A stretch of 64,000 nt of DNA from Bradyrhizobium sp. SRS-191 (GTDB taxonomy: Bacteria > Pseudomonadota > Alphaproteobacteria > Rhizobiales > Xanthobacteraceae): positions 310,001 to 374,000 of the forward strand of contig NZ_JANBVS010000005.1 in assembly GCF_024586915.1 (NCBI RefSeq), written 5' to 3'. Shown piece by piece: positions 6,231 through 64,000 of the stretch. The notes beneath the pieces are model-generated. The model was given only the letters and a program-made list of their open reading frames with translations, made no database searches and had not been told where the DNA came from. Position numbers and translations under genes: made by a program. Position 1 is the first letter of the stretch; each line of letters opens with the position of its first letter.

Positions 6231-6314
6231 GCCTGGCTGCGGCTGCGGGCTGAGACCAGCGGTCGAGGGATCGAGCTCCCACCTCGTCAATACGAAGATT
6301 TGCGCGGAGTTGCC

Positions 6315-6453
6315 GTAGGGTGGGCAAAGCGGCCGCCGTCAGGCGGCAGCGTGCCCACCGTCGTGCGGCCAAGCGAGCGGACAGACGGTGGGCACGGCGC
6401 CACCGCGACCTCGTACGCCGAGAGGCCGCGGCTGCGCCTTTGCCCACCCTACG
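6315..6453. repeat. Palindromic intergenic repeat, copy 1
   Basis: The element has inverted outer ends, gtagggtgggcaaagc and gcgcctttgcccaccctac, and an inner inverted repeat of 12 bp (gtgcccaccgtc at 6351-6362, gacggtgggcac at 6384-6395), so the whole can fold into a branched hairpin. A second copy of nearly the same length is at 15541-15677. This copy lies between two converging 3' ends (cytochrome b561 and ftsH). Repeats with these ends are known to me as common in Bradyrhizobium intergenic regions; the function is not established. Confidence 0.85.
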
Positions 6454-6463
6454 CCGTCATGAG

Positions 6464-27725: not shown

Positions 27726-29171
27726 TTGTTAAAACCACCCGTTAAAATTTTCGTTGCCTATGGGCATGATCACCAGCTTCGAGATACGGTCTCAACTACT
27801 CTTGAGCGTCTCGCAAACCAGCTTGGCTTTCGCATCACAGTTAAAGTTGTGACCGATTCAATCGTCCGAACCGGGACAGGCGCAGTTGGCAGCGAAGTCC
27901 ATAAGACGCTCAAAGCGGTCGATGCAGCGATTATCCTTCTCACATCTGACGATTACGCGATCTCCAAAAATGAATTCAATCGAATCAAAGACGCATCAGC
28001 AGACGTCCGACTTGATGCAAACGAACTCATCAAACGGATGGAGCGACGATCGCGTCAGAACGTAGTGTATGAGATTGGATACCTAAATGCAAAGATTGGC
28101 CAAGAACGTTACTATGTAATAGCAGATGACGGCATTACCGCCTTCGCGAATTTGGGCGATGTTTTTAGAACCAAAAGCTTCGAGGGCAACATCGAACCAT
28201 TGCTCAAGGAATTTCTAACTGACCGACTTAAACTTAAACTTGAACAGCGCCCTCTCTATCAGACGTCACGAGAAATCGAATATTTCGACTTCATTGAAGA
28301 ACTAGAGAATCTTGACGATTCCGAGATACTCGACGACTTCGAGAACGAGTTCTCCGAACTATTGAACGACGACGACCGGATTCTATACATATACGAAAGA
28401 ATCGTATTTGATAGCTATTTTCAAGACTCAATCTGGTGGCGCAAGCAAATCTCGAAGATAAAAAGAAAATCCAAAGAACATCGACTGCTTGTATCGGGAC
28501 TCAATCTAGTTCAAGAGTACATTGCAAGCTGGCGACCTCCAGAGAAAAAAGATTACTCGAACATCCGATTGGTCGCCACCGAACTCAAAGCCAAGATCAC
28601 GGAAATTGAAGCGATTGGCGTCGCCCCAATAGCCAGAATTGTGCTCTATGATTACTTAGGTCTCGCCCTGGATAAATGCGCGCGACGATCAATCGAAATC
28701 GGAAACATCAATGACGCCATAACTGATTGGCGCCTCGCTATATCGGCGCTAGACGCGACGCTCACTCTCGCCGCAGAATTTGAGGATGAGCAGTTACCAC
28801 TTTGGCGAGGCTACGCCGCCTACAATAAAGCTCGAGTTCTTCGGCAATTGTCAGACCACGACAATTCAGTCGGAGCTGAATGGATGGCGACATTCCAAGA
28901 AGCAATTCGATTTCGCCACAAATGGACGCAAACCCCCGTTTTTTTGCCCAACATGGTCAAAGTTGGCCTGTTTACAGAGTACCTGCATGCCAAGGCCACT
29001 CGGATAGAAATGCGACAACCTGGCGAGATTGGTGACTTCGCCATCAGCGATGAATTCGTCACTGAGGCCAGGAAGGAGTTTGAAGAGTGGTTAGCGGGGC
29101 CAGACCAAAATCGGGTCCGCCTTGCCCGAAATGTCATTGACACATGGAATAAGCTGAATAGCAAAACATAG
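27726..29171 (+). CDS. TIR-like domain protein with helical C-terminal region (candidate defence effector)
   Basis: The 481-residue protein starts at TTG with GGGG 7 nt upstream; no ATG occurs nearby. Residues 1-150 match the predicted nucleotide-binding TIR-like family (PF10137): KIFVAYGHD at 7-15, VDAAIILLTSDDYA at 65-78 and RSRQNVVYEIGYLNAKIGQE at 108-127, where Glu116 is the likely catalytic NADase residue. The rest is acidic, then helical and TPR-like (for example SALDATLTLAAEFEDEQLPL and AAYNKARVLRQLSDHDNS), perhaps the sensing part. In CBASS this TIR domain is joined to STING; here neither STING nor a cyclase is adjacent. It stands alone in an AT-rich island. NAD-depleting anti-phage action is inferred, not shown. 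Confidence 0.8.
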   Translation: MLKPPVKIFVAYGHDHQLRDTVSTTLERLANQLGFRITVKVVTDSIVRTGTGAVGSEVHKTLKAVDAAIILLTSDDYAISKNEFNRIKDASADVRLDANELIKRMERRSRQNVVYEIGYLNAKIGQERYYVIADDGITAFANLGDVFRTKSFEGNIEPLLKEFLTDRLKLKLEQRPLYQTSREIEYFDFIEELENLDDSEILDDFENEFSELLNDDDRILYIYERIVFDSYFQDSIWWRKQISKIKRKSKEHRLLVSGLNLVQEYIASWRPPEKKDYSNIRLVATELKAKITEIEAIGVAPIARIVLYDYLGLALDKCARRSIEIGNINDAITDWRLAISALDATLTLAAEFEDEQLPLWRGYAAYNKARVLRQLSDHDNSVGAEWMATFQEAIRFRHKWTQTPVFLPNMVKVGLFTEYLHAKATRIEMRQPGEIGDFAISDEFVTEARKEFEEWLAGPDQNRVRLARNVIDTWNKLNSKT

Positions 29172-29312
29172 GCTGATAGGCGTCGCCGTAGTCCAACAAG
29201 GCACCCTACCAGTCTTTACATTACGCGGCGCGCACGCGGACCGGACGAGAATGGATTAAACACAGCATCCTCCCGCGCATTAATCTGATATGGCCCTATT
29301 TCCTTTGTTCGC

Positions 29313-31178
29313 ATGGCTTCGCTAGGGCTCATTGGCATGACCGTCGATCTTTTGAAGGACACCAAGTCCTATCCGCGGATGACGCGCTGGTTCAATCCGC
29401 TGCTTCTGATCAAGCTCCTCAACAACGTCGTCACCTCAGCGATGTTCGGCCAGTATGCCGACCGGCGCCTGATGGTCGCCGCGCTCGATACGGTGGCGCC
29501 CGAGGAGCACATGGCGCGCGCGACGGCGTTCGCGCGAGGGCTCAGCCCGACGACGAAGGGCCCCGTCTGGATCGACTTCGTCGCCGACCTCGGCGACGGC
29601 TTCGACAGCACCTATGCTGTCGCCTGCCTGCTCGCCCGCCAGACATTGGAGTTCGGCGGCGAAACTCTGCCGCGCGGCGAGATGCTGATCATGGGCGGCG
29701 ACGAGGTCTACCCGCTCGCCAATGCCCAGACCTACCGGAATCAACTGCGCAAGCCTTACCAATGGGCCTCTCCCGACCACGACAAGACCGACGACGACGG
29801 CGTTCCGTTGTTCGCGATCCCCGGCAATCATGACTGGTATGACGGGCTGGTGCAGTTCCTGGCCTATTTCACCCGGCCGACACCGACCCATTTCGGCTCG
29901 TGGCGGACGCAGCAGAAGCGCAGCTATTTCGCGATCCAGCTCACCGAGAGCTGGTGGCTGTGGGCGATGGACATCCAGCTCGCCGACAACATGGACCAGC
30001 CGCAGGCGGACTACTTCAAGCTCATCGCCCAGTCGGACCAGCTCAAGCCGGGATCGAAGATCATCCTGTGCACCGCGGAGCCTGGCTGGCTCTACACCGA
30101 CACCAATATGAGATCATGGGAAATCGTCGACTACGTCCTCGGCATTGCAAGGAAGGCCGACAAGGCGCTGACGATCCCGCTGCTGCTCTCCGGCGACACC
30201 CATCATTACAGCCGCTACCACGCTGAAGACGGCACGCAGTTCGTGACGTCGGGTGGCGGCGGCGCCTTCCTGCACCCGACCCACCAACTGGAGAAGAACG
30301 TCAGCGTGCGCTGGACCGGCACGAAGGTCCCGCTGACGCTCGCCGACAAGCCTGATGGCAAGGAGCCCGCCGTCTACCCGTCGATGCACACCAGCCGTGA
30401 GCTTCTCTGGCGCAATCTGTGGTTCGCGCTGACGAATTGGGATTTCTCGATCCTCATGGGCCTGGTGTATTTCGCCGTCGGCGTCCTGGTCGGTTTGCGC
30501 AACGAGATCGACATCTACGTTCTCGTGGCGCTGGCGTTCGGCGCAGGCATCATCGGCTACACGACGCGACAGGAGCACGTCTCGCTCGCCGACATCTTCA
30601 ACAAATGGCAGCGCCGTCACATCAGGACGGAGTTCGACGAGATCGACCGGGAAAACGTGCCGATCCAGTTCAAGAAGGCGCTGGTCGTCATCGGCACGAG
30701 CGTGCTGCACGCAGCCGCCCACATCGTCACCGCGCTGGCGGCCGCCATCTTCTTCAGGGAGATCAATGGCGATCCCTTTCCCGCGGGTCATCCCTGGTAC
30801 AGCGTCTGGACATGGCTCGGCCTGCTCGCATTGGAAATGGGCGCGGTCGGCTCCGTGCTCGGCAGCAGCTATTTCGGCCTCAACATGCTCATCACCTGCC
30901 GCTGGCTGCGGATGAACCGCAACGACGCCTTCAGCGCGCTGCGCATCGGCCACTACAACAATTTCCTCCGGCTGCGCATCGAAGGCGACGACGTCCAGGT
31001 CCACGCCATCGGCCTCGAGCGCGTGCCTGCGCGTCATGAATGGAGGGCGAACCCCGCCTGCCAGGCCGGCAATCCTGCACAGCCGCAATGGATTGCGGCG
31101 ACTCCCTTGCAGCCGCACCTGATCGAAAAATTCGTGGTCTCCGGCAGATCCGGGCCTGCGACGCGCCCCGAAGCCTGA
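29313..31178 (+). CDS. Membrane-anchored calcineurin-like metallophosphoesterase
   Basis: The 621-residue protein has a calcineurin-like phosphoesterase core: VADLGDGFDST, GGDEVYPLA, the metal and catalytic block IPGNHDWYDG and the C-terminal GDTHHYSRYH. These residues would hold two metal ions. After about residue 365 come four or so membrane helices (MGLVYFAVGVLVGL, LVALAFGAGIIGY, VLHAAAHIVTALAAAIFF, WLGLLALEMGAVGSVLG), then a soluble tail with LRIGHYNNFLRLRIEGDDVQ. The substrate is unknown. It is complete and GC-rich, so not part of the island, and is convergent with the SRPBCC-hydrolase gene. Confidence 0.85.
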   Translation: MASLGLIGMTVDLLKDTKSYPRMTRWFNPLLLIKLLNNVVTSAMFGQYADRRLMVAALDTVAPEEHMARATAFARGLSPTTKGPVWIDFVADLGDGFDSTYAVACLLARQTLEFGGETLPRGEMLIMGGDEVYPLANAQTYRNQLRKPYQWASPDHDKTDDDGVPLFAIPGNHDWYDGLVQFLAYFTRPTPTHFGSWRTQQKRSYFAIQLTESWWLWAMDIQLADNMDQPQADYFKLIAQSDQLKPGSKIILCTAEPGWLYTDTNMRSWEIVDYVLGIARKADKALTIPLLLSGDTHHYSRYHAEDGTQFVTSGGGGAFLHPTHQLEKNVSVRWTGTKVPLTLADKPDGKEPAVYPSMHTSRELLWRNLWFALTNWDFSILMGLVYFAVGVLVGLRNEIDIYVLVALAFGAGIIGYTTRQEHVSLADIFNKWQRRHIRTEFDEIDRENVPIQFKKALVVIGTSVLHAAAHIVTALAAAIFFREINGDPFPAGHPWYSVWTWLGLLALEMGAVGSVLGSSYFGLNMLITCRWLRMNRNDAFSALRIGHYNNFLRLRIEGDDVQVHAIGLERVPARHEWRANPACQAGNPAQPQWIAATPLQPHLIEKFVVSGRSGPATRPEA

Positions 31179-52285: not shown

Positions 52286-53179
52286 TCAGAGCCGGTAGTA
52301 TCGTTCCGCGTTGTCGTGAAACAGCTTGCGGCGGTCGCCTGAGGCGAAGTCCGACGTGATCTCCTTGAAGGCATCGAACAGTTTGTCGTAGCTGCTGAAC
52401 AGCTTGTCGACCGGGAAGTTGCTGGCGAACATGCAGCGTTCGACGCCGAAGGCCTCAATGGCGGTGAGCACGTAGGGGCGGAAGGAGTCGACCGTCCAGG
52501 TCCAGTCGCCCATGCCGAGACCGGAGATCTTGCACGCGACGTTCGGAGCCTGGGCCAGCAGCTTCATGCCGGTCTTCCAGGCCTCGAAATGATCGGGGCC
52601 ATCGACCTGCATGCCGGTGTGGTTGAGGATGATCTGCGTGTCCGGAAAATCTCGCGCGAGCTCATAGGCCTCCTGCATTTGCGGGTAGTAGAGCTGAAGG
52701 TCGAAGGACAGGCCGAGGTCACGCAGCATGGCAAAGCCGCGCCGCCACTCCGGCTCGCGACAGACGCCGGGCCGGTCGAGATAGGTCTTGGCCGGATCGG
52801 CGTGATAGTTCAGCGACTGGCGGATGCCGCGGAAATTCGGATAGGCCAGGTGTCGTTCGAGCACGTCGCGCACGTTCGGCTGCGCCAGATTGGCATAGCC
52901 GACGATGCCGTGAGGAAAGCCGTGCTTGTCAGCGACGCCCTGCAGCCACTTCGTCTCGCCGACCGGATCCTTGGGATCGAAGCCGACGTCGAGATGGACC
53001 GACTTGACGACGTTCTGGTTCTTGCAGTCGGCGAGGAAGTCCTCGATCAAATAGCTGTGGTTGATCGCGGTGTAGTCGCCGAAGGCCGAGGGCTTCACGC
53101 CGTCGCTGAGCCACGGGTAATAGTGGTTCTCGAGATCGTAGAGATGGTGGTGCGGGTCGATGATGGGAAAATCGGTCAT
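52286..53179 (-). CDS. Amidohydrolase-2 family (lactonase-like) enzyme
   Basis: The 297-residue TIM-barrel hydrolase begins MTDFPIIDPHHHLYDLENHY, with the metal-binding HxH pair, and has ILNHTGMQVDGP and FASNFPVDKLFSSY later. This COG3618 group includes L-fuconolactonase and other sugar-lactone hydrolases. Start ATG 53179. It is last in the minus-strand catabolic cluster, so hydrolysing a sugar lactone made by the SDR dehydrogenase is a reasonable guess but unproven. Confidence 0.88.
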   Translation of the reverse strand: MTDFPIIDPHHHLYDLENHYYPWLSDGVKPSAFGDYTAINHSYLIEDFLADCKNQNVVKSVHLDVGFDPKDPVGETKWLQGVADKHGFPHGIVGYANLAQPNVRDVLERHLAYPNFRGIRQSLNYHADPAKTYLDRPGVCREPEWRRGFAMLRDLGLSFDLQLYYPQMQEAYELARDFPDTQIILNHTGMQVDGPDHFEAWKTGMKLLAQAPNVACKISGLGMGDWTWTVDSFRPYVLTAIEAFGVERCMFASNFPVDKLFSSYDKLFDAFKEITSDFASGDRRKLFHDNAERYYRL

Positions 53180-53261
53180 GGTGGCATCCTCGATCAGGGA
53201 TCGTCCGGACATGGGTGCGGGCGCCCGATGAATCAGGCGCCCGCTGCGATGCCTTGCGCGA

Positions 53262-54254
53262 TCAGTAGTCGCCGGCGGACGGCGGATAGACGCGCTTCAG
53301 CTTGGCCTGGGCTTCCGGCGTGCCGACATTGCTGGAGGTCACGAGCGACAGCGGCAGCGGCAGGCTCTGAGTCACGGCCGCGCCGGTCAGGGCGTTGTAG
53401 ACCTGCTGCACGCCCTCGATGCCCTGCCCGCCGGCCTCCTGCAGGAACAGGCCCTGCACGACGCCTTCACGCAACAGCTTGACGGTGGTCGGGCTGCCAT
53501 CGGATGTGGCGAGGCCGACCTTGCCGACGAGGCCGCGGGTCTGCAGCGCCTTGGCCGCGCCGGTCGCCGCCTCATCATACATACCGTAGATCGCCTTGAC
53601 GTCGGGATGCGCGGTCAGGAGGTCGTTGGCCTGGTCGACGGCTTCGCGGACGGTCAGGCCCTTGGTCTGCAGAATCTGCACCAGCTCGCAACCATCCGCC
53701 TGGAACGACTCCTTGGCGCCGGCGAGATATTTCTGCGCATTCTCGCGATCCTGCGGCAGTGACAGCATCCCGACCTTGTTGCCGCCGCGCTCCTTGGCGA
53801 GCGCGCAGACGAACTTGCCTTCGGCCTTGCCGCCGTCGAAATTGTTGGCGGTCACCGCCGACGTATAGTCGGTCTCGCCCGGCTGCGGGCCGATGCCGGC
53901 AAACGCGATCGGGATCTTCTTCTCCTTCAGCAGCTTCAGCACCGGCGGCGTGCTGGTCGAGCTGACCGGACCCATCACGATGGCGTCGACGCCGCGGGTG
54001 ATCGCGGTGCGCACGTTGGTCATCTGGTCGGCCGGCGAATTGTGCGAATCCATCTCGATATAGGTCATGCCGAGCTCGGCCGCCTTGGTCTTGGCGCCGT
54101 AGCCGACCCACTGCCAATAGGAGATGTCGAGCGACGGCGCGATATAGGCGACCGTGAACTTCTTCGCGCCCTCGGCGGCAGATGCCGGCTGCAGAGCCGC
54201 GGCCATGACGGCTGAGACAGCGATGGCGAACAGGCCTTGAGATCGTCTTTTCAT
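53262..54254 (-). CDS. Sugar ABC transporter substrate-binding protein (ribose type)
   Basis: The 330-residue protein has a signal peptide ([18 protein letters not shown]) and a type I periplasmic-binding fold: [54 protein letters not shown] and [16 protein letters not shown]. It delivers a sugar or related solute to the permease and ATPase encoded just upstream. ATG 54254 follows GGAGGAAAG. The pocket residues do not identify the ligand. Confidence 0.9.
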
Positions 54255-54302
54255 GCTTTCCTCCAAGTGTTTTATGAACGTTTCGTGGGTGGTGCAGCTA
54301 TC

Positions 54303-55310
54303 TCAGCTACGGACCTTCGTGGCGCGGTCGATCAGGACCGCGACGAGGATGACGGCTCCCGTGACGGTTCCTTGCCAGAAGCTGTTGATGCCGATCAGGT
54401 TGACGCCGTTCTGGATGACCGTGATCATGATCGCGCCGAGCATGGCGCCGATCGCCGAGCCGGTGCCGCCGAACAGGCTGGCGCCGCCGATCACGCAAGC
54501 CGCGATCGCCTGCAGCATGAGGTTGGCGCCGGCGGTCGATTCCGAGTTGCTGATGTAGGACAGGCTCAGCAGGCTGGCGAAGGACGCCGCCAGGCCGGAC
54601 GCGACATAGACGCCGAAGCGCACGCCGTGCACGGGAATGCCGAGCAGACGGGCCGCCTTGTCGTTGCTGCCGATGGCGAACACCCAGCGGCCGACGACGA
54701 GCTTGCGCAGCACGAATTCAAGGGCGATCACGGCAATGGCGCAGAACAGCACGAAGTTGGTGACGCCGGGGATCAGCTCGCCGCCATTGAGCTTCCAGAA
54801 ATTCGCATCCGCAATCGCGATCGAGTGACCGTCGGTGATGACGAAGGAGAGACTGGCGCCGATCGCGTAGGTGATCAGGGTGACGACGAACGGTGCGAGG
54901 CCGACGATGGTGACGAGGCCGCCATTGATCGCGCCGACGGCCGCGCCGACGCCGAGGCTGATCAGGCAGGCGATCGGCCACGGCAGGCCGGCGGAGAAGC
55001 ACAGGCCTGCGACCATGCCGGTCAGCGAGAAGGTCGAGCCGACCGACAGATCGATGCCGCTGGTGGCGATCACCAGGAACACGCCGAGCGACATCAGGAT
55101 CAGCGGCGCAGCCGCCTGGGCGATGTTGGCGAGATTGCCCCAGGTCAGCACGTAAGGCGACCAGAAGCTGATACCCACGAGCAGAACGACGATAGCGATC
55201 GCGATCGCGATCTCCGAGCGATAGGTGCGCGTCAGCCGGACGGCCAGTGAGGCGCGCTTGCCAGGCTTGGGCCGCTGGGCCGCGCGCTGATCGATCACCA
55301 CTTCCGTCAT
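54303..55310 (-). CDS. Sugar ABC transporter permease (RbsC type)
   Basis: The 335-residue permease has about ten helices, with family blocks GVFLVIATSGIDLSVGSTF, AINGGLVTIVGLAPFVVTL and the late GGASLFGGTGSAIGAMLGA. I start at ATG 55310, with AAGAGGA just upstream; ATG 55331 is also possible. It follows the ATPase gene closely (about 31 nt) and precedes the binding protein gene by 48 nt, forming a complete importer. Confidence 0.9.
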   Translation of the reverse strand: MTEVVIDQRAAQRPKPGKRASLAVRLTRTYRSEIAIAIAIVVLLVGISFWSPYVLTWGNLANIAQAAAPLILMSLGVFLVIATSGIDLSVGSTFSLTGMVAGLCFSAGLPWPIACLISLGVGAAVGAINGGLVTIVGLAPFVVTLITYAIGASLSFVITDGHSIAIADANFWKLNGGELIPGVTNFVLFCAIAVIALEFVLRKLVVGRWVFAIGSNDKAARLLGIPVHGVRFGVYVASGLAASFASLLSLSYISNSESTAGANLMLQAIAACVIGGASLFGGTGSAIGAMLGAIMITVIQNGVNLIGINSFWQGTVTGAVILVAVLIDRATKVRS

Positions 55311-55341
55311 GTTATCCTCTTGCTTGCTCATGCGCCGGCAG

Positions 55342-56865
55342 TCACGCCGCCATTCCGGTCGCGCGCGACAGCGAGACCTCGTCGAGCTCGTCGTGCCCGA
55401 GAATGCCGCTGACCTGGCCGCCGAGATCGAAGGCGATCACCCGGTCGCAGACCGCGATCAGCTCGGTGAACTCGGTCGACCACCATACCACGACGCAGCC
55501 CGCGGCGGCGGCATCGCGGATCATCGCGTAGATCTCGCGCTTGGTGCCGATGTCGACGCCGCGCGTCGGCTCCTCCAGCACCAGGATCTTCGGCGCCGGC
55601 GCGAGCCAGCGCGCCAGCAACAGCTTCTGCTGCGTGCCGCCGCTCACGGTCTGCGGCAGCGCGTCGATCGAGCTCGCCTTGATCGACAGCGTATCGAGCG
55701 CGGTCTGCGCGGCCGCGGCTTCGCCTGATGAGGCCAGGATATGGCGGCCGGCGACCCGTGCGGCCGCGACGATGTTGTCGAGGATCGGCAAGGTCGCGAG
55801 GATGCCCTTCTCGGCGCGATCGCCGGAGACGTAGCCGACCCCTGCCCTCACGGCTTGCGCGGGACTTGCGAATGTCACGTCGGTGCCATCGATCGTGAGG
55901 CGCCAACCGCCGGACCGCCGCGCACCGATCAGGGTCTCGATGACGCCGGACGGCCCGGCGGGCGCACCGGCAAGCCCGAGCACCTCGCCCGAGCCGACGC
56001 TCAGGGAGACGCCCGAACCGCGGAGCACAATCTGCGTGCGTGCCGAGGTAGCGATCGTGCTGCGCGGCGCAGCCTGCGGCAAGGCGCTGCTCTTCTGCCC
56101 CATCGCCTCCACGATCGCCTCATCGCTGATCTCGGAGAGCGACGCGCGGTCGAGCACCGAGCGCCCGTCGCGCAGCACGGTGCAGACGTCGGCGAGCGCG
56201 CGGATCTCGCCCATGCGATGCGACACCAGGAGCGTGCTGATGCCCTGCTGCGCCAGGCGGCGGAGAATGCCGAACAGCCGCTCGGTCTCGGAGAACGTGA
56301 GATTGGCGGTGGGCTCGTCCAGCAGCAGGACGCGTGCGCCGGAGCTCAGCGCCCGGGCGATCTCGACGAACTGCCGCTCGTGCAGGTCGAGCTGCGCCAC
56401 CGGCCAGTCCAGCGCCCGCTCCGCCAGCTCCTGGTCGACCAGCGCCAGCGCGGCATGCGCCTCCTCGAAGCATTCAGCCTCGCTCAGCCGCGCAAGAGCG
56501 CGCTTGCGATGCGGCAAGGTGATGTTCTCGGCCACCGACAGATGCGGCAGCAGCGCCAGCTCCTGGAACACGACGGCGATCGCATTGGCGTCGGGATCCT
56601 CGCGGCCGTCGATGCTGATTGATCCGCCATCATGGCGGTGCGAGCCCGAGATGATGCGGATCAGGGTCGACTTGCCCGCACCGTTGCCACCGAGCAGCGC
56701 GTGAATCTCGCCGCGCCGGATCCGCAAATTGGCGCCGCGCAGCACATGCGTGGCTCCAAAGCTCTTCTCGATGGCCTTGGCTTCGAGGACGAACGAAGTG
56801 GCGTTCGTCTCGCCTTGGGTCTCACGCACCGCTGACATGTCAGAACTCACGCTCACCTGCTTCAT
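55342..56865 (-). CDS. Sugar ABC transporter ATPase, double NBD (RbsA type)
   Basis: The 507-residue protein has two nucleotide-binding domains. The first has Walker A GGNGAGKST (59-67), Q-loop FQELALL, a degenerate signature (LDLHERQFVEIARAL) and Walker B VLLLDEPTANL. The second has signature VSGGTQQKLLLARWLAP and LVLEEPTRGVDIGTK, but its Walker A region reads GLAGAPAGPSGVIETLIGA, with neither the lysine nor the GAGRTE loop usual for RbsA relatives, and Glu replaces Asp in Walker B. Only one site probably hydrolyses ATP. It begins 9 nt after the TRAP gene. Confidence 0.9.
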   Translation of the reverse strand: MKQVSVSSDMSAVRETQGETNATSFVLEAKAIEKSFGATHVLRGANLRIRRGEIHALLGGNGAGKSTLIRIISGSHRHDGGSISIDGREDPDANAIAVVFQELALLPHLSVAENITLPHRKRALARLSEAECFEEAHAALALVDQELAERALDWPVAQLDLHERQFVEIARALSSGARVLLLDEPTANLTFSETERLFGILRRLAQQGISTLLVSHRMGEIRALADVCTVLRDGRSVLDRASLSEISDEAIVEAMGQKSSALPQAAPRSTIATSARTQIVLRGSGVSLSVGSGEVLGLAGAPAGPSGVIETLIGARRSGGWRLTIDGTDVTFASPAQAVRAGVGYVSGDRAEKGILATLPILDNIVAAARVAGRHILASSGEAAAAQTALDTLSIKASSIDALPQTVSGGTQQKLLLARWLAPAPKILVLEEPTRGVDIGTKREIYAMIRDAAAAGCVVVWWSTEFTELIAVCDRVIAFDLGGQVSGILGHDELDEVSLSRATGMAA

Positions 56866-56873
56866 CCCGATGC

Positions 56874-58733
56874 TCAGAGGAATCCGATCGACAGCCAGGG
56901 GATGAAGGCCACGAGCAGCAGACCGAGCACGAGCGCTCCGAGATAGGGCCAGATGCGCGTCAGCCCGGCATTGGGATCAATCTGACCGATCGAGCACGCG
57001 GCGTAGTAGCCGAGGCCGAAGGGCGGCGCGAACAGGCCGATGCCCATCGCCAGGATGATCACCATCGCGTAGTGCACCTCGTGCACGCCGAGCAGCTTGG
57101 CGGCCGGGAACAGCAGCGGCCCGAACAGCACCATCGCCGGCAAGCCTTCGAGAATGCTGCCGAGCAGAATGAACACCCCGATCGAAATCAGCAGGAAGCC
57201 GTATTTGCCGCCGGGCACCGACGTCATCATCGCCGCCAGCGCGTGCGAGAAGTTCGATTGCGTGAGCGCCCAGGCCATCGCAGTCGCCGCGCCGATGATG
57301 AAGAGAATCGCGCCCGACAAGGCCGCGGTGTGGACCAGCGCCAGATAGAGCTTGCGCCAGTCGAACCGGCGATAGACCAGCAGGCCGACGATGATGGCGT
57401 AGGCGATGCCGATGGTCGACACTTCGGTGGCTGTCGCCACGCCTTCCGTGACGGCGGTGCGGATCAAGACCGGCAGCAGCAGCGCGGGGATCGCGGTGAT
57501 CAGCGCCGCGCGGATCGTAGCCCAGGACGCACGCTCACGGATGATCCCCTCCGGCTCGACCATGCGGCGCTTGGCGACGATCGCCAGCGCCACCGCCAGC
57601 ACCAGGCCCGGGACGATGCCGCCGGTGAACAGCGCAGAGATCGAGACGCCGGCGACAGAGCCGATGATGATCAGCACGATCGAGGGCGGGATGGTCTCGG
57701 CCATCGCGCCGGAGGCCGCGAGCAGCGACACCAGCTCGCCGTCATGGATGCCGCGCCGCTTCATGTCGGGAAACAGCACCGGCGCAACCGCGGCCATGTC
57801 GGCCGTCTTGGCGCCGGAGATGCCGGACACGAGCAGGATCGCGCCCAGCAGCACATAGGACAGGCCGCCGCGGACATGGCCAACCAGCGACACCAGGAAG
57901 CCGACCATCGCCTCGGCCATTCGCGTCATCACGATGAGATGACCAAGCAGGATGAACAGCGGGATGGCGAGCAGCACCAGCGAGGAGACACCCTCGTCGA
58001 TGCGGCTGGTGACGACCTCGAGCGGTGCGGTGGTGACCGTCAGCAGATAGGCAACGGTGGCGAGGCCGAAGCAGAATGCGATAGGCACGCCGGCGAGCAC
58101 GGCCGCGCCGAGCAGCAGCGCGAAGAAGACGATGAGATTCCAGTTGCCGAGCGCCTTCAGCGCCGGCGCGGCGCCCCACAGCACGAGCGCAATGGCCGCG
58201 AGCAGCACCAGCGTGATCGCGAGATCGCGCGAGGCATGGCGGGTCATGCGCAGCAACGCGGTCGCGAGCATCAGGCCGATGCCGACCGGCACGGCGCCGG
58301 CGCGCAGGCTGTCGGACAGCCCGAGCGCCGGCGTCTCGACGAAAGACTGGCCATGGGCGTAGTCGATCGCGGGATGCAGCAGGATGCCCAGGAACAGCGC
58401 CGGGGCCATCAAGGCAAGGCTCTCCAGCACCGCGCGCACGCGCGGGCTGACGCGGTCGACCAGCGCGGTCATCCGCATGTGCTCGCCACGGCTGAGCGCA
58501 AGCACCGCGCCGAACATCGCGAGCCAGAGAAAGGTGATCGACGCGAGCTCGTCGGCCCAGGTCAGCGGCCGGTTGAAGACGAAACGCGACGTCACACCGG
58601 TGAACAGGATCCCGACTTCCGCGACCAGGGCGATCACGGCCGGAATCTCGATCAGCTTCGTCAGGACCCGTTCGAGCCCGTCGACGACGCCGTGCTTCGT
58701 GGAGGCTGCCAAGGACGCGTCGACGCTGTTCAT
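56874..58733 (-). CDS. Fused TRAP transporter permease (DctQM)
   Basis: The 619-residue protein joins the small and large TRAP membrane subunits. Residues up to about 180 are DctQ-like (TSRFVFNRPLTWADELASITF), and the rest is DctM: AIPLFILLGHLIVMTRMAEAM, AASGAMAETIPPSIVLIIIG and APPFGLGYYAACS. Its ATG (58733-58731) overlaps the DctP stop as ATGA, so the two are translationally coupled. It is the second solute importer of this locus beside the ABC system. Confidence 0.92.
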   Translation of the reverse strand: MNSVDASLAASTKHGVVDGLERVLTKLIEIPAVIALVAEVGILFTGVTSRFVFNRPLTWADELASITFLWLAMFGAVLALSRGEHMRMTALVDRVSPRVRAVLESLALMAPALFLGILLHPAIDYAHGQSFVETPALGLSDSLRAGAVPVGIGLMLATALLRMTRHASRDLAITLVLLAAIALVLWGAAPALKALGNWNLIVFFALLLGAAVLAGVPIAFCFGLATVAYLLTVTTAPLEVVTSRIDEGVSSLVLLAIPLFILLGHLIVMTRMAEAMVGFLVSLVGHVRGGLSYVLLGAILLVSGISGAKTADMAAVAPVLFPDMKRRGIHDGELVSLLAASGAMAETIPPSIVLIIIGSVAGVSISALFTGGIVPGLVLAVALAIVAKRRMVEPEGIIRERASWATIRAALITAIPALLLPVLIRTAVTEGVATATEVSTIGIAYAIIVGLLVYRRFDWRKLYLALVHTAALSGAILFIIGAATAMAWALTQSNFSHALAAMMTSVPGGKYGFLLISIGVFILLGSILEGLPAMVLFGPLLFPAAKLLGVHEVHYAMVIILAMGIGLFAPPFGLGYYAACSIGQIDPNAGLTRIWPYLGALVLGLLLVAFIPWLSIGFL

Positions 58734-59758
58734 CCGAGCTCTCCGACGTTGGACTGCAGGATGGTCCAGGCCTCCTCGCCGAACTTGCCGCGCCAATCCT
58801 TGTAGAAGCTGCTCTTGCCGAGCGCGGTGCGGAACGCGTTCTTGTCGACGTCGACGAAGGTGAAACCCTTGGCGGCGAGATCGGCGCGCAGGCTCTGGCT
58901 GAGCGCGGCGATGTCGGCGCGCTCGTCGTCGGCCGACTTGCCGAACTCGCGGGTGACGATCGCCTGCAGGTCCGACGGCAGCTTGCCGAAGGCGGCGCGG
59001 TTGCCGAGGATCCAGTAGGCGTCCCAGACATGGCTGGTGAGCGAGCAGTATTTCTGGACCTCGTAGAGCTTGGCGGTCGCAATGATCGGCAGCGGGTTCT
59101 CCTGCCCCTCGACCACCTTGGTCTGAAGCGAGGTGTAGACCTCGTTGAAATTGATCGGGGTCGGACCGGCGCCGAGCGCCTGGAACAGGCTGGTCAGGAT
59201 CGGCGCGGCCGGCACGCGAATCTTGAAGCTCTTGAGATCATCCGGCGTCTTGATCTCGCGGGTCGACGACGTGACCTGGCGAAAGCCATTGTCCCAGGGT
59301 TTTGAGAGCGCGATGGCGCCGGTCTTCTCGATGTCCTTGCGAATGTGATCACCGAGGCTGCCGTCCATCGCCTTCCACACCTGATCGTAGGACGAGAAAG
59401 CGAAGCCGGTGTTGACGATGCCGGCGAGCGGCACCCGCGTGGCGAGCACGGAGCTCGCGATGTTGATCGCATCGACCGCGCCGACGCGAACCTGCGAGAT
59501 CAGGTCCGTATCGGAGCCGAGCTGATTGGCGGGATAGAGGTTGATCTCCAGGCGGCCGCCGCTGGCTTCCTTGATGCGGTTGGCGGCCTCTTGCGCCCGC
59601 TTGTTGACCGGATGCGACGGGTCCTGCCCGGTCGCAAGCTTCATCGTGAACTCGGCCGCGTTCGCATAACGCGAGATCGCGAATGTGAAAGGCAGAGCTG
59701 CTGCTGCCGTGATCAATTGCCGACGCGTCGTCCCCTTGGTCCCCTTGCGCATTTCCAT
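58730..59758 (-). CDS. TRAP transporter solute-binding protein (DctP)
   Basis: The 342-residue protein carries a twin-arginine-like leader (TTRRQLITAAAALPFTFA) and a classical DctP domain: MKLATGQDPSHPVNKRAQEA, the RVPAAPILTSLFQALGAGP segment with the arginine that binds carboxylates, and EVYTSLQTKVVEGQENPL. It belongs to the dicarboxylate/sugar-acid class and differs from the pair at 37.8-40.2 kb. The conserved Arg favours an acid ligand. Start ATG at 59758. Confidence 0.92.
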   Translation of the reverse strand: MEMRKGTKGTTRRQLITAAAALPFTFAISRYANAAEFTMKLATGQDPSHPVNKRAQEAANRIKEASGGRLEINLYPANQLGSDTDLISQVRVGAVDAINIASSVLATRVPLAGIVNTGFAFSSYDQVWKAMDGSLGDHIRKDIEKTGAIALSKPWDNGFRQVTSSTREIKTPDDLKSFKIRVPAAPILTSLFQALGAGPTPINFNEVYTSLQTKVVEGQENPLPIIATAKLYEVQKYCSLTSHVWDAYWILGNRAAFGKLPSDLQAIVTREFGKSADDERADIAALSQSLRADLAAKGFTFVDVDKNAFRTALGKSSFYKDWRGKFGEEAWTILQSNVGELG

Positions 59759-59828
59759 CCCTCCAGTATGAAATTATTTTTATGGGCCGGCGCCATGGCG
59801 CCGGCGATGAATGAGAGCGGTTGGCCCG

Positions 59829-60842
59829 CTATGTGAGCCAGCCCTTCACCTGCCTTGCGACCTCCGAGAGCGAGATGCCGTAGCGGTCGTGCAGCGTCGG
59901 CAGCGCGCCGGCGTCGAGGAATTCGTCGGGTATCCCGATCTGCCGGAACGGCACGTGCACCCCCGAACGCATCAACACCCCGGCGACAGCCTCGCCGAGA
60001 CCGCCGATCAAGGTATGGTTCTCGGCGACCACCACGAGACGCCCGGATCGGCCGGCCTCGCGCAGGATGGTCTCGGCGTCCAGCGGCTTGATCGTCGGCA
60101 CGTGCAGTACGGCGACATCGACGCGATCATCGGATAGCGCCTTGGCCGCCTCGAGCGCGCGCATCGTCATCAGGCCGGACGAGATCATCAGCACGTCCCG
60201 GCCGTCGCGCAGCAGCTTGGCCTTGCCGAGCTCGAATTTGTAGTCGTACTCGTCGAGCACCAGCGGCACCTGGCCGCGCAGCAGGCGCATGTAGACCGGC
60301 CCCTGATGGGCGGCCATCGCAGGCACGACCTGCTCGATCTCATGCGCGTCGCAGGGATCGATCACCGTCATGTTCGGCATCGCGCGCATCAGCGCCAGAT
60401 CCTCGGCCGCCTGGTGGCTCGGGCCGTAGCCGGAGGTCAGGCCGGGCAGCGCGCAGACGATCTTCACATTGCGATCTTCCTCGGCGATCGTCTGATGGAT
60501 GAAGTCGTAGGCGCGGCGCGAGGCGAACACGGCGTAGGTCGTCGCGAACGGCATGAAGCCTTCGGCGGCGAGGCCCGACGCGGCGCCGAACAGCAGCTGC
60601 TCGGCCATGCCCATCTGATAGTAGCGATCGGGAAACTCCTTCGCGAAGATGTGCAGATCGGTGTATTTGCCGAGGTCCGCCGTCATACCGACGATTTCGG
60701 GCCTGTGGCGCGCCAGTTCGACCAGCGCGTGGCCGAACGGCGCCGGCTTGGTGCGCTGCCCCTCGGAGGCGATCGAGGCGATCATCGCCGAGGTCGTCAG
60801 GCGCGGCTTGCTCAGATCCGGAGCGGGTCTTGTCGATTTCAT
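59829..60842 (-). CDS. Transketolase, C-terminal (pyrimidine-binding) subunit
   Basis: The 337-residue subunit carries the transketolase pyrimidine domain (PAPFGHALVELARHRPEIVG, YYQMGMAEQLLFGAASGLAA with the catalytic Glu) and the C-terminal domain (GRLVVVAENHTLIGGLGEAV). It pairs with the upstream thiamine-diphosphate subunit to move two-carbon ketol units between sugars. Its ATG at 60842 overlaps the N-subunit stop by one base. Split transketolases of this kind usually belong to accessory sugar pathways. The N-terminal 30 residues are not conserved. Confidence 0.9.
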   Translation of the reverse strand: MKSTRPAPDLSKPRLTTSAMIASIASEGQRTKPAPFGHALVELARHRPEIVGMTADLGKYTDLHIFAKEFPDRYYQMGMAEQLLFGAASGLAAEGFMPFATTYAVFASRRAYDFIHQTIAEEDRNVKIVCALPGLTSGYGPSHQAAEDLALMRAMPNMTVIDPCDAHEIEQVVPAMAAHQGPVYMRLLRGQVPLVLDEYDYKFELGKAKLLRDGRDVLMISSGLMTMRALEAAKALSDDRVDVAVLHVPTIKPLDAETILREAGRSGRLVVVAENHTLIGGLGEAVAGVLMRSGVHVPFRQIGIPDEFLDAGALPTLHDRYGISLSEVARQVKGWLT

Positions 60843-61690
60843 CAGGGCCTCCCGGCGTCGAGCGCGGCGATCGCGAGCTGCCATTCATACGGCTCGACGC
60901 GGATGAAGTGGTTCTTCTCGCGTTGTTCGAGGAAGGGCACGCCCTTGCCCATCAACGTGTCGGCGACGATCATGCGCGGCTTCGGCGCTTCGAGCATCTT
61001 GGCCGCGTCGAAAGCGGCGACCACGGCGTCGAGATCATTGCCGTCGACGCGCTGCACGAACCAGCCGAAGGCTTCCAGCCGGTCCACCAGCGGCTCGAAG
61101 CTCATCACCTGGGTCGAGGGGCCGTCGGCCTGCTGATTGTTGACGTCGACGATCCCAATCAGGTTGTCGAGCTTGTAATGGCTGGCGGACGAGATCGCCT
61201 CCCACACCGAGCCCTCGTCGAGCTCTCCGTCGGAGAACAGCGTGTAGACGCGCGAGGACGATTTCTTCCGCTTCAGCCCAAGGCCCATGCCGACGGCGAT
61301 GCTGAGGCCGAGGCCCAGCGAGCCGCCCGACATTTCCATGCCCGGCGTGTAGGACGCCATGCCGGACATCGGCAGCCGGCTGTCGTCGCTGCCGTAGGTC
61401 TCGAGCTCGGCCTCAGGCACGATGCCGGCCTCGATCAGCGCGGCGTAAAGCGCGATGGCGTAGTGACCGTTCGACAAAAGAAAACGATCGCGCTCCTCCC
61501 AAGTGGGATCCTCGGGCCGGTAGCGCATCGCGTGAAAATAAGCCGTCGCCAGCACGTCGGAGATATCGAGCGCCTGGGCGATGTAGCCCTGCCCCTGCAC
61601 CTCGCCCATGCGCAGCGCATGGCGGCGGATATTGTAGGCGCGCTGCGCCAGGGTCGGCGCGTTGACGAGCCGGTTGGTTGCGGTGTCCAT
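60842..61690 (-). CDS. Transketolase, N-terminal (thiamine-diphosphate-binding) subunit
   Basis: The 282-residue subunit has the thiamine-diphosphate motif SDGELDEGSVWEAISSASHY ending in DVNN, the RFLLSNGHYAIALYAAL segment with the reactive His, and GGSLGLGLSIAVGMGLG. It works only with the downstream C-terminal subunit. The SDR gene lies 14 nt upstream. Together with the transporters this suggests growth on a sugar that is cleaved by ketol transfer. Confidence 0.9.
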   Translation of the reverse strand: MDTATNRLVNAPTLAQRAYNIRRHALRMGEVQGQGYIAQALDISDVLATAYFHAMRYRPEDPTWEERDRFLLSNGHYAIALYAALIEAGIVPEAELETYGSDDSRLPMSGMASYTPGMEMSGGSLGLGLSIAVGMGLGLKRKKSSSRVYTLFSDGELDEGSVWEAISSASHYKLDNLIGIVDVNNQQADGPSTQVMSFEPLVDRLEAFGWFVQRVDGNDLDAVVAAFDAAKMLEAPKPRMIVADTLMGKGVPFLEQREKNHFIRVEPYEWQLAIAALDAGRP

Positions 61691-61704
61691 GATCTCAGAC
61701 CTTG

Positions 61705-62454
61705 CTAGTGGATCAGCATGCCGCCGTTGACGTCGATCACCGCGCCCGTGACATAGGCGGACAGATCCGACGCCAGGAAGGTGTAGATGCCGGCGACATC
61801 GTCGGCGGTGCCGAGACGGTTCAGCGGAATGCCCTCGAGGATCTTGGCCTTCATCTCATCGGTCAGCTTGCCGGCCGTGATGTCGGTGCCGATCAGGCCG
61901 GGCGTCACGCAGTTGACCCGGATGCCGTCATTGCCGAACTCGCGCGCCATCGCCTTGGCGAGGCCGAGCACGCCGGCCTTCGCGGCGGAGTAATGCGGGC
62001 CGCCGAAAATGCCGCCGCCGCGCTGTGCCGAGACCGACGACATGCAGGCGATCGAGCCCGATTTGCGGGCGCGCATATGCGGGATCACCGCCTGCGACAG
62101 GAACAGCACGCCCTTGAGATTGACGTCCTGGATGCGATCCCAATCGTCCGGCGTGATGTCGAGCAGCTTGACCGGCTGGGTGATGCCGGCATTGTTGATG
62201 AGGATGTCGATGACGCCGAACTTGGCGACGACCTGCGCGACGGCGTCATTGCAGGAGCTCTTGTCGGCGACGTTGCAGCCGAGCCCGAGATGCTGATCGC
62301 CGAGCGTCGCAGCCGCATCGGCTGCCGCAGCTGCATCGATGTCGAGGATGGCGACGCGCGCCCCTTCGGCGGCGAACCGTCGCGCGGTAGCGAGCCCGAT
62401 GCCGCGCCTCGAAGCTGCGCCCGAGATGATCGCCGTTTTGCCGCTGAGCAGCAT
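61705..62454 (-). CDS. Short-chain dehydrogenase/reductase
   Basis: The 249-residue SDR has the cofactor site IISGAASRRGIGLATARRF, NNAGITQ, and the catalytic Ser-Tyr-Lys set (SSVSAQRG and HYSAAKAGVLG). Asp at the end of strand 2 (ILDIDAA) favours NAD. It is the first gene of the minus-strand cluster; ATG 62454 follows GGGAGGAC. It probably oxidises the imported sugar or alcohol, which is inference from context. Confidence 0.92.
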   Translation of the reverse strand: MLLSGKTAIISGAASRRGIGLATARRFAAEGARVAILDIDAAAAADAAATLGDQHLGLGCNVADKSSCNDAVAQVVAKFGVIDILINNAGITQPVKLLDITPDDWDRIQDVNLKGVLFLSQAVIPHMRARKSGSIACMSSVSAQRGGGIFGGPHYSAAKAGVLGLAKAMAREFGNDGIRVNCVTPGLIGTDITAGKLTDEMKAKILEGIPLNRLGTADDVAGIYTFLASDLSAYVTGAVIDVNGGMLIH

Positions 62455-62542
62455 CCTTAGGTCCTCCCAAAGTGTCGTTGTGTTGGGCTTGACCATGGCG
62501 GGGCGGAGAGGCGACGACAAACGCACAGTTGTCACGGATAAA

Positions 62543-62555
62543 TGAATCTGGTTCA
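62543..62555. promoter_or_regulatory. LysR-type binding site (TGAA-N5-TTCA)
   Basis: TGAATCTGGTTCA is an inverted repeat of the T-N11-A form used by LysR regulators. It lies 8 nt before the LysR gene and 89 nt before the divergent SDR gene, so a bound regulator could repress itself and activate the cluster. A short site of this kind can occur by chance. Confidence 0.45.
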
Positions 62556-62563
62556 CTCATGGC

Positions 62564-63445
62564 ATGCTGTCCAATATCCCGATCTCGTCAATCAAGGCGT
62601 TTGAGGCCGCCGCCCGGACCGGTTCCTTTCGCGATGCAGCGAATGAGCTTCACCTGACGCCGAGCGCGGTGAGCCACGCCATCCGCAAGCTGGAGACCAC
62701 CCTGCGCACGGTGTTGTTCGAGCGCACGGCACGGTCCGTGCGGCTGACGCCGGCCGGCGAGAACCTGATGCGCCATGCCGGCGCCGCCTTCGACCAACTG
62801 CGCCGAGGCCTCGAAGAGGTCGCCGCACGCGGTCCGCAACTGGTCCGCGTGCATTCGGCGCCGAGCTTCGCGGCGCAATGGCTGACGCCACGATTGGCGC
62901 GCTTCCTCGCCGCCCATCCGAAGCTCGAGGTGCGGCTGTCGGCCAATACCGACTATGCGCGTTTCAAGAACGACGATTTCGACATCGACATTGTCTACGG
63001 CCAGCCGCATGCCGAGGGCGTCGAGGTCGTTCCGCTCGCGGAGGAGACCGTGACGCCGCTATGCGCGCCGGCGCTGGCGGCGACGATCAAGCGGCCGGCC
63101 GACCTGCTGGACCGGACGCTGATCCGCTCCGATGTCAAGCAGGTGCAGTGGCACCAATGGTTCGCCGCCAACGGCCTCGAGGCTCCTGCCCTGCACGGCA
63201 TGCGCTTCGACCGCAGCTTCCTGGCGCTGGCGACTGCCGCCGAAGGCCTCGGCGTTGCGCTTGAATCAACCCTGCTGGCCGAGCGCGAGCTCGCCGCAGG
63301 ACGTCTCGTGGCGCCGCTCGCGGGCCGTGCGAACGACGTGCGCTACGTCGGCCATCGCCTGGTGTTTCCGCGCAACGCTCACCAACGTACGGCCGTACGC
63401 GCCTTCGCGGACTGGATTACATCCGAGCTCAGTTCAAATGGCTGA
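62564..63445 (+). CDS. LysR family transcriptional regulator (GcvA-like)
   Basis: The 293-residue regulator has the winged helix-turn-helix near the N-terminus (SSIKAFEAAARTGSFRDAA, HLTPSAVSHAIRKLE, LFERTARSVRLTPAG) and a two-lobe effector domain (QLVRVHSAPSFAAQWLTPRL start). The effector domain resembles that of GcvA-type members. It is divergent from the ten-kilobase catabolic cluster and is its most likely regulator. The frame is complete. Confidence 0.92.
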   Translation: MLSNIPISSIKAFEAAARTGSFRDAANELHLTPSAVSHAIRKLETTLRTVLFERTARSVRLTPAGENLMRHAGAAFDQLRRGLEEVAARGPQLVRVHSAPSFAAQWLTPRLARFLAAHPKLEVRLSANTDYARFKNDDFDIDIVYGQPHAEGVEVVPLAEETVTPLCAPALAATIKRPADLLDRTLIRSDVKQVQWHQWFAANGLEAPALHGMRFDRSFLALATAAEGLGVALESTLLAERELAAGRLVAPLAGRANDVRYVGHRLVFPRNAHQRTAVRAFADWITSELSSNG

Positions 63446-63487: not shown

Positions 63488-64000
63488 TCATCGCTTCCTG
63501 GCCGTCGAGCGGCCCGCCGCTTCATCGCCTGCTGCTCCAGCATTCGAGGCACGCGCGCCGTTCCACTTGCCCGTCGCGACGAGCGTGAGCAGCGTCGCGC
63601 GGCAGAGGGCGTGGACACTGGACACCGCGTGGCTGAGCGGCCGGTCGACCGGATGGGCGAGGTGTACCGAACGCTTGATCTCCGGCTGCTTGATCGGCCA
63701 CGCCAACAGGCGTTCGCTCTGCACGTCACGTGCAATCGCGTTATAGGGCAGGATCGAATAGCCGATCCCCTCCTCGACCAGTCCCTTGATGTTGGCGTAG
63801 GAGTCGACCTCGATCACCGGCTCGAGCGACAGCCCGCGCGCGGTCGCCTCGCGCTCCAGCAGCATGCGCAGGCCATGGTCCGCGCTCGGCAGGATCAGCG
63901 GAAGCTGGGTCACGTTGGCGTAGGCGACGGCGCCCGATGCGGGCGGCTTGACGCCGGCCAGAGGCACCGTCGGGCCGAGCAGCCAGAGCTCCTCGGTGAT
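63488..64000 (-). CDS. LysR family regulator, C-terminal part (cut by window edge)
   Basis: About 170 residues of an effector-binding domain are visible, beginning ITEELWLLGPTVPLAGVKPP and continuing with LPLILPSADHGLRMLLERE, VEVDSYANIKGLVEEGIGYS-like pattern and ILPYNAIARDV, all typical of the Nac/Cbl branch of LysR regulators. The helix-turn-helix lies beyond the right edge. It is convergent with the GcvA-like gene and ends in a low-complexity tail. Confidence 0.88.
   Translation of the reverse strand: MTEELWLLGPTVPLAGVKPPASGAVAYANVTQLPLILPSADHGLRMLLEREATARGLSLEPVIEVDSYANIKGLVEEGIGYSILPYNAIARDVQSERLLAWPIKQPEIKRSVHLAHPVDRPLSHAVSSVHALCRATLLTLVATGKWNGARASNAGAAGDEAAGRSTARKR

Follow-up and report, generated by a model that had tools for sequence, protein, structure and literature searches.

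A split transketolase-like enzyme with an altered pocket in a putative sugar-acid operon of Bradyrhizobium sp. SRS-191

What does a bacterium degrade with a locus that joins two importers of different types to one small enzyme set, including a transketolase split over two genes? This question is raised by a locus in Bradyrhizobium sp. SRS-191 (contig NZ_JANBVS010000005.1, positions 310,001 to 374,000), which lies in the 64,000-nucleotide stretch of this 7.62-Mb genome that was analysed here and is called the window. Open reading frames and Pfam assignments place nine genes at 52286-62454, all on the minus strand, behind a divergent LysR gene. Our answer, which we hold to be about as likely right as wrong, is that the locus is an operon for the kinase-free breakdown of a small sugar acid and of the corresponding lactone. 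According to this proposal, a CUT2-type ATP-binding cassette (ABC) importer would bring in the lactone in its neutral form (or the parent sugar), and an amidohydrolase (AH) would open the lactone to the acid, while a tripartite ATP-independent periplasmic (TRAP) importer, or in other loci one of the major facilitator superfamily (MFS), would take up the free acid directly. The two importers would then serve the neutral and charged forms of one nutrient. A short-chain dehydrogenase/reductase (SDR) would oxidise the acid at a secondary alcohol, giving an alpha-hydroxy-beta-keto (3-oxo) acid. The two transketolase halves, TkN and TkC, would assemble as a heterotetrameric thiamine diphosphate (ThDP) enzyme with a remodelled substrate pocket, which would cleave the C-C bond beside the new ketone, giving a 2-oxo acid or an aldehyde acid, and pass a two-carbon fragment to an acceptor.

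The first evidence for a pathway is that the SDR, TkN and TkC genes recur together as a core module. We collected the best 80 of 588 loci matched by TkN, stretches from further genomes and eleven plasmid regions, and called a locus a core locus if it held TkN or TkC at no less than 60% identity; for a neighbouring SDR the threshold was 50%. This sample is skewed towards Bradyrhizobium and Burkholderiaceae, and the counts are not independent. Altogether 131 loci pass the threshold and 130 of these hold both halves, with 127 distinct TkN stretches because three pairs are identical. Of the 130 loci, 120 have an SDR and 117 a LysR gene near the core. Among those loci that carry a name, Bradyrhizobium sp. 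STM 3809 and SSBR45G come nearest to the window, with TkN 93-94% identical. A search of 398 sampled genomes of the phylum found TkN at 64% identity or more in 22 of them; 26 genomes fell within the E-value limit, and four at 43-56% identity were excluded from the count. The importers beside the core vary: 50 of the 131 loci have a fused TRAP, 25 a split TRAP, 28 an MFS importer, five a split TRAP plus ABC, two an MFS importer plus ABC, and 21 none of the kinds sought. Such variation of importers while the enzymes stay constant is expected for an organic acid that both TRAP and MFS importers can transport. The smallest versions, in Pantoea, Acinetobacter and Arthrobacter plasmid records, consist of SDR, MFS, TkN and TkC, and the core therefore looks sufficient for a pathway whose products would enter central metabolism directly.

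The SDR of the window (61705-62454, minus strand, in a frame that opens at 62556; adh_short_C2, 232 bits) is 67% identical to the core-module SDR of Acinetobacter (positions 5819-6568 of locus L234), which in turn is 98% identical to PDB entry 7krk, deposited as a 3-oxoacyl-acyl carrier protein (ACP) reductase (7krk/7krm). The deposited enzyme probably belongs to the core pathway instead of 3-oxoacyl-ACP reduction. Among the 11 loci in which no SDR reaches 50% identity, four (L081, L131, L138 and L173) carry a HIBADH-type dehydrogenase gene, as if this enzyme could stand in for the SDR there, and the Arthrobacter locus has an SDR below the threshold.

The second and most distinctive evidence comes from the split enzyme itself. 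TkN, the N-terminal half (60842-61690, minus strand; Transketolase_N, 130 bits), and TkC, the C-terminal half (59829-60842, minus strand, in a frame that opens at 60884; Transket_pyr and Transketolase_C), contain the transketolase N, pyrimidine and C domains (PF00456, PF02779, PF02780), all above cut-off. Their nearest solved relatives, 6yak for TkN and 6yaj for TkC (217 and 245 bits), come from one enzyme, the two-chain split transketolase of Carboxydothermus hydrogenoformans. Both halves were aligned with this enzyme, and TkN also with human transketolase; residues are given in E. coli numbering. In the window, H26 is replaced by Tyr, H100 by Ser, S385 by Tyr and H461 by Leu, and D469 falls in a one-residue deletion with a neighbouring Tyr. 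The changes hold for practically all members compared. Among rows of at least 50% identity from the fetched loci (122 TkN and 121 TkC), the H100 position is Ser in all 122, the H26 position is Tyr in 121 and Phe in one, and the S385 and H461 positions are Tyr and Leu in all 121. None of these rows departs from H66, H261, H473, R520 or the catalytic Glu, and the substitution pattern decays in relatives below 50% identity. Thus the family has the domains, the catalytic Glu, H66 and H473 of a transketolase, but has lost H100 and H26 as well as S385, H461 and D469, keeping only R520 on the acceptor side. The C. hydrogenoformans enzyme shares the two-chain transketolase fold and the ThDP machinery, but 6YAK/6YAJ keep all five residues that the window family has changed.

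The paper on that enzyme (PMC7661550) names H66, H100, G114 and H473 in donor binding, reports that mutations of R358, S385, D469 and R520 alter aldehyde acceptance, contrasts the His at position 100 of transketolase with the Phe of 1-deoxy-D-xylulose 5-phosphate (DXP) synthase, and mentions that H100F or H100L in another transketolase raises pyruvate use. We considered the Ser at this position as proof of acetyl transfer as in DXP synthase and rejected it, because Ser is polar and the residue of DXP synthase is Phe. Because Ser fits neither enzyme, we conclude only that donor and acceptor recognition appear to have been changed in the TkN/TkC family and held constant since. As judged from the alignments, the word transketolase describes the fold of TkN/TkC, and the ThDP machinery is kept. 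The earlier note on this DNA had assigned ketol transfer to the split transketolase. The fold is borne out, while the reaction was an extrapolation from that fold, with residues of donor and acceptor recognition lost. As a tentative and on balance doubtful suggestion, TkN/TkC may represent a distinct ThDP class, a two-chain lyase or transferase whose rebuilt pocket would split a (perhaps branched) 3-oxo sugar acid without phosphorylation. This would be a third route beside the kinase-RuBisCO-like and kinase-decarboxylase routes, found on chromosomes and plasmids of Alpha-, Beta- and Gammaproteobacteria and on an Arthrobacter plasmid. Two relatives at 53-55% identity (L181 and L182) have the same H26 and H100 substitutions and adjoin galactonate-dehydratase-like genes (274.7 and 247.4 of 311 bits) and CUT2-like importer genes, which by analogy would again be a sugar-acid context.

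It is possible, but in our view rather unlikely, that the enzyme performs classical ketol transfer. The SDR would then turn an aldonate into a keto-acid with a terminal ketol (for example 4-oxo-pentonate, 5-oxo-gluconate or 3-oxo-tetronate), and TkN/TkC would move glycolaldehyde to glyceraldehyde 3-phosphate, yielding xylulose 5-phosphate and a small aldehyde acid to be reduced by accessory dehydrogenases. The retained R520 agrees with this, as do the genes near the core, which include a canonical transketolase in 32 of the 130 loci, a HIBADH-type dehydrogenase in 28 (one representative reaches 312 of 350 bits for L-threonate dehydrogenase) and a D-2-hydroxyacid dehydrogenase in 24; a HIBADH-type tetronate dehydrogenase, looked for as a mark of the tetronate pathway (threonate dehydrogenase, 3-oxo-tetronate kinase and decarboxylase), is absent from the nine genes of the window. 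However, the changes at H100, S385, H461 and D469 throughout the family, at positions where 6YAK/6YAJ keep the canonical residue, argue against an ordinary transketolase reaction. Two further readings of the core's neighbours were dropped. TIM-barrel neighbours as hydroxypyruvate isomerases had no NCBIfam match in L171, L179 and L236, and the one in L240 matched an epimerase family only weakly. A link to D-threitol appears in L179 only (1/131), where a GolD/DthD-type dehydrogenase, a dihydroxyacetone-kinase family gene, an RpiB-type isomerase and a transaldolase lie beside the core.

The third line of evidence is the behaviour of the other half of the locus, which we call the ABC-AH block. It consists of the AH gene (52286-53212, start maybe 53179; Amidohydro_2, 163 bits), whose product is a probable sugar-acid lactonase, and the genes of an RbsB-like CUT2 substrate-binding protein (SBP; 53262-54266, likely start 54254; Peripla_BP_4, 151.7 bits), an RbsC-like permease (54303-55331; BPD_transp_2, 115 bits) and an RbsA-like double ATPase (55342-56865; two ABC_tran stretches), all on the minus strand. 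By Pfam and profile models the CUT2 importer is complete; its proteins reach none of the displayed sugar-specific equivalog cut-offs, and the nearest solved relatives of the SBP are ribose-binding proteins at about 95 bits. In the 398 genomes, AH orthologues (72% identity or more) occur in four and SBP orthologues (67% or more) in the same four; the AH search had 41 genomes within the E-value limit, of which those at 53% or less were excluded, and the fifth genome of the SBP search stood at 32%. In all four genomes no more than 10 kb separates these orthologues from the core. By chance such co-location would have a probability of 7e-6 for four of four and 1.3e-4 for three of three when the window genome is left out, both uncorrected for shared ancestry. 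Plasmids give a similar picture. AH matches were found in 142 plasmid records, 30 of them listed, and six regions were opened, from R. etli, A. fabrum, Aminobacter, Sinorhizobium, Phyllobacterium and Neorhizobium, on plasmids that are all conjugative by PLSDB typing. Each of the six carries the whole core (SDR, TkN and TkC), a TRAP of the split kind, the ABC genes and AH; in the Neorhizobium copy the matches to LysR, TkN, SBP and the TRAP permease are broken. The block stands before the core/SDR in Aminobacter and after the TRAP genes in the remaining five; the gene orders differ, and therefore the association of block and core survives rearrangement. Among the plasmid matches listed, nine accessions are common to AH and TkN, the two being 8.3-8.4 kb apart in eight, and the ninth, NZ_CP023065, has a second TkN place equally near AH.

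The reverse association does not hold. The core occurs without the block in 124 of the 131 loci and with it in seven, and in Bradyrhizobium SSBR45G, which matches the window at 87% DNA identity over 56865-63430, no match to the block was found in the stretch examined. The block is thus an optional addition, seen only alongside the core in everything opened. For the earlier idea of a single nine-gene catabolic set, this means that the recurring SDR-TkN-TkC core stands, while the ABC-amidohydrolase half is an add-on. Two importer types with one enzyme set, which had been called uncommon, are indeed present here, and among the loci fetched only the window pairs a fused-DctQM TRAP with the block; yet the arrangement is not unique to this locus, since the seven core loci with the block also pair it with another importer. 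As the block is found with three kinds of acid importer, it would seem to supply the same acid by a second route, most simply as a lactone. The proposed oxidation by the SDR and opening of a sugar-acid lactone may be retained as compatible with the gene content and with the co-conservation of both halves of the locus. The many loci without the block, including SSBR45G, would also be expected if two pathways were merely adjacent, one for another sugar through the ABC-AH genes and one for a separate acid through the TRAP-SDR-TkN/TkC genes. We regard this as quite improbable, for the block was never seen without the core, and all four AH/SBP genomes and all six plasmid regions have the core beside it in differing gene orders.

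The identification of AH as an L-fucono-1,5-lactonase (NF052480) was rejected, as its score of 102.4 bits is far from the equivalog cut-off of 400. AH relatives at 45-53% identity have an enolase-superfamily (MR_MLE) gene nearby in the three loci checked (L215, L216 and L217), and L215 also has an FAA-hydrolase gene; by analogy, such enolase-superfamily neighbours resemble oxidative sugar pathways. Separately, an SMP-30/gluconolactonase-like gene (PF08450) occurs on the opposite strand, downstream of the core, at 8462-9352 of locus L044 and is so placed in seven fetched loci, L044 and six more, all without the AH block; perhaps it encodes another lactonase.

Which acid the pathway would degrade may be approached through the TRAP importer. 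Its DctQ-DctM fusion (56874-58733, minus strand, in a frame that opens at 58796) carries DctM (337.5 bits) and DctQ (91 bits) in one chain, and its solute-binding protein DctP lies at 58730-59758 on the same strand (246 bits). With TIGR00787 at 228.7 (cut-off 175) and TIGR00786 at 292.3 (cut-off 268), the DctP, DctQ and DctM components of a DctP-type TRAP are all present. The nearest solved chain to DctP is 4oan_A, with 370.7 bits against 148 for the next. The density in 4oan was reportedly modelled as 2-acetolactate. However, the window genome has an orthologue of 4oan (85%) at a separate locus, beside an acyl-CoA synthetase, and the DctP of the window, a 53% paralogue, falls in a different clade. 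Of the 53 rows in the tree, 22 were core-associated fused-TRAP DctPs, the window's own and a selection of 21 from the 50 loci; 20 of these 22 group in a separate supported clade (99/98). The 4oan ligand is therefore not transferable to the DctP of the window, and 2-acetolactate as the substrate is weakened by the orthologue elsewhere, its other neighbours and the separate clade.

More is suggested by sister TRAPs of the window subfamily, for which 22 further neighbourhoods (L271-L292) were inspected. OiaK-like and OiaX-like genes occur together in nine and OiaK-like genes alone in three, while one has an acyl-CoA synthetase and a 2-hydroxyacyl-CoA lyase. Because of these neighbours and of the accessory genes near the core, we favour as substrate class a C4-C5 acid, perhaps branched, that would be oxidised to a 3-oxo acid. 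A more specific alternative, which we think rather improbable, is that the 3-oxo acid is branched at C2, in the manner of 3-oxo-isoapionate, 2-C-methylerythronate or 2-acetolactate, and is cleaved as in a reversed acetolactate synthase reaction to pyruvate or hydroxypyruvate. It draws on 4oan as the closest solved DctP, on the listing of 2-acetolactate among TRAP ligands in a review (PMC5812351), on the sister TRAP neighbourhoods just described and on a DXP-reductoisomerase-like (DRL) oxidoreductase that flanks TkN in L174 and L175. The distinct clade of the window DctP and the separate 4oan orthologue weigh against it; moreover, the core is elsewhere accompanied by a distantly related TRAP (33-37% to 4oan) or an MFS importer, and the DRL gene is seen in those two loci only. 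As observations in their own right, the nine cassettes of L274-L281 and L287, with a related TRAP, an OiaK-like kinase and an OiaX-like RuBisCO-like protein, have a small glyoxalase-like protein in eight and are possibly another uncharacterised 3-oxo acid pathway. The cassette of L273, from the window genome itself (C61), combines a TRAP with acyl-CoA synthetase-like and 2-hydroxyacyl-CoA lyase genes and is suggestive of 2-hydroxyacid degradation. DRL-type oxidoreductases (PF21135) of 450-460 aa were noted beside TkN/TkC, AH-like or TRAP genes in L174, L175 and L291 by Pfam and in L221 and L290 by eye.

Several observations weigh against our proposal of a kinase-free pathway through a 3-oxo acid. 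The weight on the 3-oxo position comes from neighbours in other loci and not from the window, and the OiaK/OiaX matches are well below cut-off (284/700 and 414/700 bits in one representative pair). AH falls below the cut-off of the sole lactonase model that it matched (102/400 bits), as do the three AH relatives scanned. The Ser at H100, being neither the transketolase His nor the DXP synthase Phe, makes the donor type unreadable, and the canonical transketolase near 32 of 130 cores is also compatible with ordinary pentose-phosphate ketol transfer. Finally, no SDR reaches 50% identity in 11 of the 131 core loci and no importer of the sought kinds appears in 21, though some contigs end nearby.

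The proposed pathway may be compared with several known systems. In D-apionate/3-oxo-isoapionate catabolism, which uses the kinase OiaK and the RuBisCO-like decarboxylase OiaX (NF042436, NF042437), a 3-oxo acid is a plausible common type of intermediate. In contrast to that pathway, the window operon has no kinase or RuBisCO-like protein among its nine genes, and the split ThDP enzyme stands in that place; near the core, at the thresholds used, OiaK-like genes were found in 0/130 loci and a RuBisCO-like gene in 1/130 (L075). Oxidative pathways of the L-fucose/L-rhamnose type employ an SDR, an amidohydrolase lactonase, an enolase-type dehydratase and a CUT2 ABC importer. The window is similar in its SDR, amidohydrolase and CUT2 importer, but its nine genes include no dehydratase, hydrolase or aldolase and have TkN/TkC instead. 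In R. leguminosarum, RL2718-2722 are described as two transketolases beside a CUT2 ABC importer, induced by arabinogalactan (PMC3333776). Their likeness to the window, in two transketolase genes, a CUT2 importer and an SDR, is one of gene content, and the passages of that description that were consulted mention no amidohydrolase. In a later mutant screen, only another transketolase was commonly needed in rhizospheres (PMC11103875). The ula2 operon of S. pneumoniae combines tktN and tktC with an ascorbate-type phosphotransferase system (PMC4324149); it resembles the window, again by gene content, as a split transketolase in a sugar-acid operon and differs in its mode of import. In Bradyrhizobium, PMC5996035 lists blr2168, a 'putative transketolase alpha subunit', as detected on mannitol only; this may or may not be a gene of the window family.

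No description of the gene set or pathway was found in the open-access literature, most subscription journals being outside the search. The module is conserved and apparently unstudied; its new point is the rebuilt transketolase pocket, whereas the transporter, lactonase-like and SDR families are ordinary. If our proposal is true, the name transketolase has been masking a widespread catabolic pathway that is common in plant-associated bacteria, ThDP enzymes would gain a new chemistry of use in biocatalysis, and the PDB already holds a structure (7krk) nearly identical to the module's Acinetobacter SDR. The two binding proteins can be screened to name the nutrient, and the tight link of block and core offers a direct test of whether two importers serve two forms of one compound.

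The layout of the locus agrees with the earlier note: coordinates, Pfam assignments and a reading of the joints confirm nine genes on one strand with overlapping or short joints and a divergent LysR gene, and this grouping is beyond chance because the gene set recurs in other genomes. The main Pfam assignments of the locus genes are all above gathering scores. By the chosen starts, the TkN stop and TkC start have one base in common (TGATG), the stop codon of DctP overlaps the start codon of DctQM in ATGA, and the gaps are 14 bases between SDR and TkN, 8 bases between RbsA and DctQM and 31-82 bases elsewhere; the nine genes may well be co-transcribed. The 109 bases between the SDR and LysR genes (62455-62563), read directly, are a putative divergent promoter region, followed by the GcvA-like LysR-type regulator on the plus strand (62564-63445; HTH_1 and LysR_substrate). 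After it, a second LysR-type substrate-binding domain lies on the minus strand at 63488-64000, cut by the end of the window. Elsewhere in the window, a plus-strand gene at 27726-29171 encodes a protein of 481 aa whose TIR domain is of the CAP12/Pycsar type (60 bits in Pfam; PADLOC PDC-S35), a possible anti-phage effector. The GC content around it is low, 53% at 28001-30000 against about 65%, and the gene was perhaps acquired.

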